From the NCBI GenBank assembly GCA_903929485.1, contig CAIYUY010000173.1, positions 1 to 54,042 on the forward strand: a DNA stretch of 54,042 bases, given 5' to 3'. This document shows positions 25,747 to 29,333 of the stretch, one piece after another. The stretch's first letter is position 1; every line of letters begins with the position of its first letter. The position numbers and the translations under genes were made by a program. Source of the stretch: an uncultured Desulfuromonadales bacterium. GTDB taxonomy: Bacteria > Desulfobacterota > Desulfuromonadia > Geobacterales > CAIOGM01. The notes below the pieces were generated by a model. The model ran no database searches. It saw only the letters and a list, made by a program, of their open reading frames with translations, and was not told the DNA's origin.

Positions 25747-26091
25747 TCTCGTTGTTTCCGTAGGGGCGCATGGCATGCGCCCGTTTTGAAAAGCACGTAT
25801 TGTTAAGGGTAAATCTGGCGAACGCCGATTCTGATTCAGGGCGAACGCCGATTCTGATTCAGGGCGAACGCCGTTCGCCCCTACGAAAACCGGGATGTTT
25901 ACTCTCTCCCAACTCTCTTGACCACCGCCACCCCCGCAAATGTCCCTTTTTCTCTCTTTCGCTCCCTCGCCCTCACCACTCTTGCAGGTTCCTTGACTCT
26001 TCAGGGGATATATGCGAAAAACAACAGAGTTTACCTGAGGCGTGGATGATCGGGGTATCGAGAGTTTGAAGATCATTCTGTTGGAGGAGCT
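25747..26091. repeat. Repeat-filled gap before the ATPase gene
   Basis: This holds the palindrome GGGCGCATGGCATGCGCCC (25764-25782) and a 23-base unit containing GGGCGAACGCCGATTCTGAT about 2.5 times in tandem at 25822-25882, ending in GGGCGAACGCCGTTCGCCC. I see no gene. The region is repeated in part at 28423-28525. Confidence 0.7.
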
Positions 26092-27734: not shown

Positions 27735-28072
27735 CTCATCCCGCCTCCCTTATTATCAACTCCCCCTACGACGCGCCACACCGCCACTGGCTGCAGGATG
27801 CCCGTTACGGTTCACTGGCCCTGGTTGAAGAACGCCGCTCGGCGGGGTACGAAATCCTTGACGTTCGCTACAACATCAATTGGCGGTGCAGCGGATCTGA
27901 GCAAGGTGCATGCCATAGACCTTGAGCGGATCCCCGACGGGTTCCGGTTGCAACTGCTCGTCTTCCAAGCGGCGCGCAAGGCGTTTGACGCATTGCAGGG
28001 GAGGTTCAAGGGGGGACGGGGCACGCACGGTGGCGCTGAACCAAAACTAATCGTACCGTGCGAAAGAGTGTA
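27731..28072 (+). pseudogene. Restriction-endonuclease/helicase gene remnant
   Basis: The first codons (ASLIINSPYDAPHRHW, then SLALVEERRSAGYEI) match the start of large DEAD/DEAH-type restriction proteins of the BPTD_3080/type III group. After about 40 codons the match breaks off. A later piece in another frame (HAIDLERIPDGFRLQLLVFQ followed by AARKAFDAL) reads like an internal part of the same kind of protein. More than 700 residues are therefore missing. It starts inside the stop of the preceding gene, so a complete ancestor may have formed one operon with the ATPase pair. Confidence 0.6.
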
Positions 28073-28228
28073 AAGGAATCCGACGGTAGGAGGGTGGCTG
28101 CTGTCGGACTTCTTTACATTGCGTTGCTCTTCTCATGGGAGGAGAGGGCTAACTGGCTGATAGTTGGTTGCTAACTGTTGGCTTATAACTTGCATGGCAA
28201 TATTAATTAAAATAATTGGGACTTGACA
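28073..28228. other. Gene-free stretch upstream of the sigma-54 site
   Basis: No gene is seen. TCCGACGGTAGGA and CTGTCGGACTTC can pair as a weak hairpin near 28080-28110. Several TAACTGGCTGATAGTTGGTT-like short repeats at 28149-28190 lie where an enhancer-binding protein could sit. Confidence 0.35.
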
Positions 28229-28244
28229 TGGCCACTATCTTGCA
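28229..28244 (+). promoter_or_regulatory. Sigma-54-type promoter before the (ACCG)n repeat
   Basis: TGGCCACTATCTTGCA has GG, ten bases, GC, with a good TTGCA end. Its last base is the first base of the tetranucleotide repeat, so the predicted start (about 28255) lies inside the repeat. Confidence 0.6.
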
Positions 28245-28302
28245 CCGACCGACCGACCGACCGACCGACCGACCGACCGACCGACCGACCGACCGACCGA
28301 CC
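28244..28302. repeat. Tetranucleotide repeat (ACCG), about 15 copies
   Basis: Fifty-nine bases of uninterrupted ACCG units begin exactly at the -12 end of the sigma-54-type site. Such pure short repeats change length easily by slippage. Confidence 0.95.
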
Positions 28303-28389
28303 ATAATCATGTAGTCGCCATTATTCATATTCAACGCCCTGAAAACCGGCGTCGCGGGAGCAGATCATGCCCTTCGACGCCGGTTTTTT
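28255..28389 (+). ncRNA. Candidate sigma-54-dependent small RNA
   Basis: A good sigma-54-type promoter and a strong terminator frame a transcript of about 135 bases with no sensible reading frame. The 5' end would consist of about 12 CCGA repeats, followed by an A/T-rich single-stranded stretch (ATAATCATGTAGTCGCCATT) and the terminator hairpin. The C-rich repeat could pair with G-rich mRNA sites. Alternatively it is the leader of the PEP-CTERM gene 210 bases beyond the terminator, but the hairpin should stop most transcripts. Confidence 0.45.
28342..28389 (+). terminator. Strong terminator of the candidate sRNA
   Basis: AAAACCGGCGTCG (28342-28354) pairs perfectly with CGACGCCGGTTTT (28375-28387), followed by TT, giving a run of six T. 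GCCCTG/CAGGGC (28336-28341, 28395-28400) extends the stem around it. It could work in both directions. Confidence 0.85.
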
Positions 28390-28422: not shown

Positions 28423-28525
28423 GTAGGGGCGCATGGCATGCGCCCGCATTGAAAAGCACGTGTTACCAATGAAAAATTGGGGAAATGACGATTCTGATTC
28501 TGGGCGAACGCCGTTCGCCCCTACG
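28423..28525. repeat. Palindromic 'GGGGCG' repeats
   Basis: GGGCGCATGGCATGCGCCC (28426-28444) and GGGCGAACGCCGTTCGCCC (28502-28520) repeat the order seen at 25764-25890, with the same ATTCTGATTC spacer. No gene. Confidence 0.75.
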
Positions 28526-28598: not shown

Positions 28599-29333
28599 AT
28601 GTACAAACGAATGGCACAAGCAGTAGTAAGCATGGCGTTACTGATGTCAGTGATGGCGGGAGCGGCGCAGGCGAGCGTTCAGGTAATCGGCACGGCGGAT
28701 ATTGGCGGAGTGGGTACGGGGTACAATTTAATTTATGACACTGGTTCGGTAGCTGACGGTCTACCTTCTTTTGTCTGGCTTGACTACACCAATACTCCCG
28801 GTGACTGGTCTACACAGTTGTCCTGGGCGGCTGGGCTGAACGCTCTGGGGGCAGTCACCTATCATCTGAATCCCGGTATAAATATAGATTGGGGCGTGAA
28901 TAGTTGGCGGCTGCCGAGCACTGTTGATGGGCCAGTTGTCTATAGAGGTTATGATGGTACAACCATCGCCGGGTATAATATTACATCATCCGAGTTGGGT
29001 CACCTGTACTACACTGAGTTGGGGAACAAAGGTGCCGTTGATACCAGCGGTAATGCTTTGTCTGGCGTTGGACTTGTCAAGACCGGAAGTTTCAATAATC
29101 TCAAAGGGAATTATTGGTACTGTTCAGGCACGGGGTATCTAACAACAGGTAATAACTGGGCCTTTCAACCCACCAACGGCGAACAGATGTATTTTACTCC
29201 ATCCTTTTCTTGGAACGCCATCGCTGTTCGTTCCGGACAGTTTTCTGTCGTTCCAGAACCCTCAACCTATCTCCTCCTGGGGATCAGCCTCGGCGTGGTG
29301 GGATATGTGCGACGGAGAATGAGCGCTCGTTGA
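28599..29333 (+). CDS. PEP-CTERM protein with DUF1566/Lcl-type domain
   Basis: The 244-residue protein starts at ATG 28599 after GGAGGAGG. A signal peptide (MAQAVVSMALLMSVMAGAAQ-AS) is followed by a domain with LPSFVWLDYTNTPGDWSTQL, WRLPS and SELGHLYYTELGNKG, typical of DUF1566-like exported proteins. It closes with the sorting signal VVPEPSTYLLLGISLGVVGY followed by RRR. It is unrelated in its body to the three paralogues at 9958-12394. It is flanked by palindromic repeats on both sides. Confidence 0.85.
   Translation: MYKRMAQAVVSMALLMSVMAGAAQASVQVIGTADIGGVGTGYNLIYDTGSVADGLPSFVWLDYTNTPGDWSTQLSWAAGLNALGAVTYHLNPGINIDWGVNSWRLPSTVDGPVVYRGYDGTTIAGYNITSSELGHLYYTELGNKGAVDTSGNALSGVGLVKTGSFNNLKGNYWYCSGTGYLTTGNNWAFQPTNGEQMYFTPSFSWNAIAVRSGQFSVVPEPSTYLLLGISLGVVGYVRRRMSAR

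Follow-up and report, generated by a model that had tools for sequence, protein, structure and literature searches.

The window, that is, the whole 54,042-nt stretch of DNA analyzed here, comes from an uncultured Desulfuromonadales bacterium and carries on its plus strand a gene for a PEP-CTERM protein of 244 amino acids (28599-29333; PF07589 and TIGR02595 over cut-off). The region ahead of this gene contains a series of plus-strand features, beginning with a sigma-54-type site, P2 (TGGCCACTATCTTGCA, 28229-28244), that has the exact GG-N10-GC spacing. P2 shares its last base (28244) with the start of a 59-nt tract of pure ACCG repeats (28244-28302), which lies directly 3' of the -12 element and comprises 14.75 copies, a number that may be misjudged in an assembly of 369 contigs. 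A GTAGTCG box (28311-28317) follows, and 39 nt after the tract begins an intrinsic terminator (28342-28389), whose arms (28342-28354 and 28375-28387) are fully complementary over 13 bp and which has the inner sequence GGGAGCA...TGCCC and a T6 run. The PEP-CTERM gene starts 210 nt past the T-run and 355 nt after P2. From P2 and the terminator, a short RNA of ~135 nt is predicted (28255-28389), with its +1 at ~28255, inside the ACCG tract. The unit thus described has its own promoter-type site and intrinsic terminator and holds no long ORF. An earlier note on this DNA had described the promoter ending on the first tract base, the perfect terminator with T6, and an RNA of about 135 nt starting near 28255, all of which agree with the coordinates given here; it had also counted 15 copies of the repeat, which is pure as claimed but not quite of that length. 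Palindromic extragenic repeats of the GTAGGGGCG...CGCCC type are found between the terminator and the gene (28423-28445 and 28502-28524) and at 25752-25931, and have many copies in the same genome and in its relatives.

Upstream of P2 lies a second sigma-54-type site, P1 (TGGCTTATAACTTGCA, 28179-28194, plus strand), which the earlier note had missed. P1 stands 60 nt after a PrsR-type box of 17 nt ending in TTTACA (TGTCGGACTTCTTTACA, 28102-28118, plus strand; one mismatch to TGTCGGRTTTCTTTACA). An inverted copy of this box (CGTCGGATTCCTTTACA, 28069-28085, minus strand) has two mismatches to the same pattern, and the element TAACTGGCTGAT (28150-28161, plus strand) sits between box and P1. In the published PrsR-type site of PEP-CTERM genes, motif 1 is 17 nt long, ends in TTTACA, and is separated from a sigma-54 site by a mean spacer of 62.8 ± 10.6 nt (PMC1569441); assignment of the present box to this type rests on its length, ending, gene type, and 60-nt spacer. 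The spacer to P1 also falls within the 32-92 nt of the PrsR-type regulon. Across the genome, the TGTCGGRTTTCTTTACA pattern with at most two mismatches has 25 matches, as against none for a reversed control, and a PrsR protein is encoded in the same genome over the curated cut-off, which is reached by no control genome. P2 lies 110 nt from the box, beyond the published maximum of 92; however, the spacers of other PrsR-type promoters in this genome are ~60-124 nt, so P2 could respond as well. A minus-strand sigma-54-type site (TGGCATGCACCTTGCT, 27900-27915, 11 of 12 matches) is located 153 nt from the inverted box, within a short ORF (27798-28073).

P1, its 60-nt spacing from the box, and an element between them (TAACTGGCTGAT, TAACYGGCTGAT) are common to the window, a second locus of the same genome (G000:C161, hereafter C161), and the sister species G003, where the gene follows a short leader that lacks the repeat unit. 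P1 is therefore likely to be the older promoter of the PEP-CTERM gene, and the window unit appears to sit inside this older PrsR-type/sigma-54 promoter region.

The match of P2, taken alone, is no better than chance: at a threshold of 9 of 12 matches, the window has 24 sigma-54-type sites against 21 expected. At 10 of 12 matches, such sites are enriched (10 versus 2.75 expected). The ACCG tract and the hairpin are far beyond chance, because tetranucleotide runs of at least 15 nt occur only twice in 976 kb of the genome (18 percent of it, in sampled stretches that include the loci of the family described below), both in family members, and because the fold of the predicted RNA (28255-28389) has a z-score of -4.0. 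In ~960 kb, runs of the CCAA class of at least 11 nt are confined to family members, and other ACCG-class runs of 11 nt number three. A general abundance of tetranucleotide repeats was considered as an explanation and rejected, since heptanucleotide repeats are common in this genome and long tetranucleotide ones are not. These heptanucleotide tandem repeats span 24-64 nt (for example, in L220 16497-16617 and L235 18541-18601). Searches against Rfam, at the gathering threshold and at E 0.5, gave nothing credible, and the window had no match.

The unit is one of five in its genome. A DNA search retrieved C161, which has the same order of parts and a repeat of six CCAA copies. A covariance model of only two hairpins, those of the window and C161 (R1), then recovered three further loci, C326, C39, and C66, each with an upstream sigma-54-type site. 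The independent step is that a hairpin-only model led to loci that also carry promoter and tract. A whole-unit covariance model (R2) scores the five members at 79-112 bits, partly by construction, as it was built from them. In all five, the order is TGGC-N8-YTGC, a period-4 run directly after it, TAGYCG, and a hairpin (GAGCA...ATGC) followed by at least six T residues as its U-run; predicted RNA lengths range from 90 to 135 nt. The members fall into three subgroups by repeat unit: ACCG in the window, CCAA in C161 and C326 (2.75 copies in the latter), and CAGG in C39 (2.5 copies) and C66 (an imperfect run). The claim of the earlier note that this is a sigma-54 small RNA with a repeat at its start can accordingly be kept in part, as a putative sigma-54-type, repeat-fronted, terminator-ended unit in five genomic copies, with the qualification that the P2 match by itself is at chance level.

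Comparison among paralogues strengthens the case for the promoter element. TGGC and TGC are invariant at their exact spacing in the five members, and the bases between -24 and -12 vary among subgroups; consensus positions kept amid varying spacer bases are what would be expected of a promoter in use. The pattern TGG[CT]N8TGC has 352 occurrences in 1.95 Mb of strand, or ~2 percent per 110 nt, which makes one in each of three subgroups unlikely by chance. Furthermore, a period-4 run of at least 10 nt right after the -12 element was found at 6 of 243 TGG[CT]N8TGC sites, four of which are family members, and at 0-2 sites when control offsets were used. Covariation in the hairpin was not significant with five sequences, and Rfam searches of the paralogues gave two sub-threshold matches only, including mir-341, a low-complexity match to the repeat on its minus strand. 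PrsR-type boxes accompany the units of the window and C161, and none was found within 700 nt of C326, C39, or C66, which indicates that the unit is modular. The family, its architecture, its gene context, and the differences in tract length among paralogues are seen in the sequence itself; the unit appears portable, occurs with and without a PrsR-type box, and is known from one genome.

Across 35 other genomes of the order, R2 gave no strong match among the best 100 candidates scored per genome, a search in which weak members could be missed. Most of the weak matches inspected had no sigma-54 site followed by a tract and were set aside. A possible far member lies next to a transposase gene in G015:C11 (L159 1506-1612) and consists of a sigma-54-type site (TGGCAACACTATTGCA) followed by CAGACAGACA and a weak, T6-ended hairpin. 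The hairpin alone was rejected as evidence of membership: G003:C63 and G001:C116 have a similar hairpin with neither a tract nor TGGC-N8-YTGC at the usual place. In addition, an element at L196 4849-4930 (minus strand) combines a related GTAGTCG, a T-run, and a hairpin with no sigma-54-type site like that of the family, and lies immediately 3' of an ORF whose end is PEP-CTERM-like.

The tract differs in length between paralogues. In the close pair C161 and C326 it measures 24 and 11 nt, respectively, indicating that it changes length in evolution. The (ACCG)14.75 tract is itself a long, pure repeat of a short unit in the control region of a gene, as is characteristic of contingency loci. Such a tract may provide the RNA with a slippage-prone 5' end. 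Elsewhere, (TGCC)12 (L126 ~2364-2412) and (ATCT)5.5 (L122 ~2736-2757) lie upstream of two far PEP-CTERM homologues in other MAGs, at positions relative to the sigma-54-type site that differ from those in the family. A sample of 18 PEP-CTERM homologues from across the phylum showed no tract in the 900 nt upstream.

Each of the five units is followed by a same-strand gene that starts 63-296 nt past the T-run, which places the terminator between promoter and gene. Four members, at 63-210 nt, precede genes for exported proteins or the PEP-CTERM system: two encode PEP-CTERM proteins, one a PrsT-like TPR protein, which scores under the family cut-off and whose gene is followed by a PEP-CTERM gene, and one a large repeat protein whose start is signal-like. 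Downstream of the fifth, C66, lies a short ORF that is regulator-like and not a surface gene. In C326, no sigma-70-like site was found in the remaining 63 nt before the gene. Far PEP-CTERM homologues in L127 (~2776-2912) and L143 have a comparable layout, with a sigma-54-type site, a strong intrinsic terminator ~100-130 nt on, and then the gene; in L127, a period-4 run of 10 nt (CACTCACTCA) lies at the -12 element as well. That the units lie ahead of genes for exported proteins favors a leader from which a short RNA is also produced. Likewise, the distance of 63-296 nt to the genes, the lack of a sigma-70-like site at C326, and the layout in L127 and L143 favor a leader that often terminates. 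In the minimum-energy folds, the terminator is the only strong element and no clear antiterminator is evident; strong hairpins with no evident antiterminator favor a free RNA, and read-through may be negligible. By analogy with UpsM in Rhodobacter, a leader that yields both a short RNA and read-through would fit these observations best.

The reading we prefer, to which we give close to an even chance, is that the locus is one of five paralogous, portable sigma-54-type leader units that mostly terminate, feed a surface gene by read-through, and have a slippage-prone 5' end. Under this reading, sigma-54 RNA polymerase would initiate in or near the tract, and most transcripts would end at the hairpin to give an RNA of 90-135 nt. 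A fraction would pass the terminator into the downstream gene. Slipped-strand changes of the tract would alter the 5' end of both the short RNA and the read-through product and could thereby tune initiation, RNA stability, or pairing. Use of sigma-54, the position of the start, read-through, and whatever the tract does functionally are all inferred here. Against the preferred reading stand the chance-level match of P2 alone, the strong hairpins with no clear antiterminator, the regulator-like ORF after C66, the hairpin covariation that is not significant, and the ACCG tract, which makes the region to be melted unusually GC-rich.

The main rival, which we consider rather unlikely, is a free-standing family of trans-acting small RNAs in which termination is complete, the tetranucleotide 5' end provides a repeated seed for pairing with other mRNAs, and the neighboring genes are incidental. 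The strong hairpins, the U-runs of six or longer, and the predicted lengths fit such RNAs well, as does the occurrence of the unit with and without a PrsR-type box. However, four of five members stand before same-strand exported or PEP-CTERM-system genes, and complementary target repeats are not enriched: the ~960 kb searched contains only the three other 11-nt ACCG-class runs noted above, and CCAA-class runs in family members alone.

Improbable is a scheme in which P1 alone works, as a PrsR-type/sigma-54 promoter of the PEP-CTERM gene, and P2, tract, and hairpin form a functionless, decaying, duplicated insert. P1 has its box at the published distance and is also conserved in G003, where the insert is missing; no strong family member was found in sister species, and P2 is at chance level in isolation. 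Against this scheme, the parts of the unit relevant to transcription have been kept although the three subgroups have diverged, and a PrsR-type box is absent from three members. More improbable still is a phase-variable leader peptide, in which the tract would lie in a short ORF starting from an ATG over P2 (28228) and the repeat number would switch the frame. The distance from the -12 element to TAGYCG is a multiple of three in C161, C326, C39, and C66, and in the window it is 67 nt, one repeat unit out of frame. A coding small ORF is nevertheless disfavored, as substitutions in the closest pair, C161 and C326, avoid third codon positions (5, 2, and 1 at positions 1, 2, and 3, including a nonsense change), and the C-terminal parts are dissimilar. 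Control of a small RNA by NtrC or NifA under nitrogen limitation, as the earlier note had suggested, is so improbable that it can be set aside: the window carries nif-type and draT genes and is enriched in good sigma-54-type sites, but neither a NifA TGT-N10-ACA nor an NtrC-like dyad occurs within 300 nt of P2, where a PrsR-type box pair is present instead, three paralogues have no such box, and no nitrogen gene is among the flanking genes identified for the paralogues.

If the preferred reading is true, an environmental Geobacterales-like organism has a five-member family of units in which the repeat is the transcript's own 5' end, the repeat unit differs by subgroup, and a link to PEP-CTERM genes exists. 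The organism is called Geobacterales-like from its nearest named homologue, in a Geobacteraceae MAG, and from the relatives used in the searches. The repeat may act as a mutable dial on genes for exported or cell-surface proteins, and the five loci would be suited to asking if a leader RNA is tuned by the number of repeats at the 5' end of its transcript. A broader proposal can be offered tentatively, and with more doubt than the leader reading: that these are sigma-54-dependent contingency RNAs of an environmental bacterium, whose 5' ends, hypermutable tetranucleotide repeats that vary from one paralogue to another, tune exported and PEP-CTERM proteins by acting in cis, in trans, or both. Host-adapted bacteria provide the best-known cases of surface genes switched by simple repeats, which usually lie in coding regions or between promoter elements. 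To our knowledge, regulation of the PEP-CTERM export system has been little studied. In the open-licence literature, no relevant paper was found that joins PEP-CTERM genes with tetranucleotide repeats or slippage, and titles and abstracts gave none describing a repeat-fronted RNA, which is weak evidence of novelty.

Several known systems resemble parts of the unit. A cis-regulatory site of PEP-CTERM genes (Haft et al., 2006; PMC1569441) has been associated with sigma-54 and PrsK/PrsR, and pepA is RpoN-dependent (PMC9850573). The locus resembles the PrsK/PrsR site in its 17-nt box ending in TTTACA, ~60-nt spacer, sigma-54 site, and long non-coding region before a PEP-CTERM gene. It differs in its insert ahead of the gene, which comprises another sigma-54-type site, a tetranucleotide tract, and a terminator, and in that three paralogous units have no box; the gene start lies 355 nt after P2, compared with a published maximum of 221 nt. 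GlmY and related enterobacterial small RNAs (discussed in PMC3162934) are likewise short, have sigma-54 promoters, and are linked to envelope function. In contrast to these RNAs, the present unit matches no Rfam family, and the GlmY type is not known to have a repeat tract. UpsM, a small RNA of the dcw cluster in Rhodobacter sphaeroides, offers a parallel for the leader, since a terminator in a long 5' leader yields a short RNA upstream of genes (PMC5089854); UpsM is a single locus in Rhodobacteraceae, and the abstract mentions no sigma-54 promoter, repeat tract, or several paralogues. With respect to the repeat, RepG and the tlpB G-repeat of Helicobacter pylori show how a small RNA can act together with a simple repeat of variable length to set surface-related expression gradually (PMC8295292). 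There, the variable repeat is in the leader of the target mRNA, whereas in the present case the RNA unit itself carries it at its 5' end. Similarly, the number of non-coding tetranucleotide repeats at the NadA promoter of Neisseria meningitidis affects a surface-protein gene (PMC2791445); that repeat changes the spacing of distal promoter elements, whereas the present one begins at the -12 element and is predicted to be mostly transcribed.
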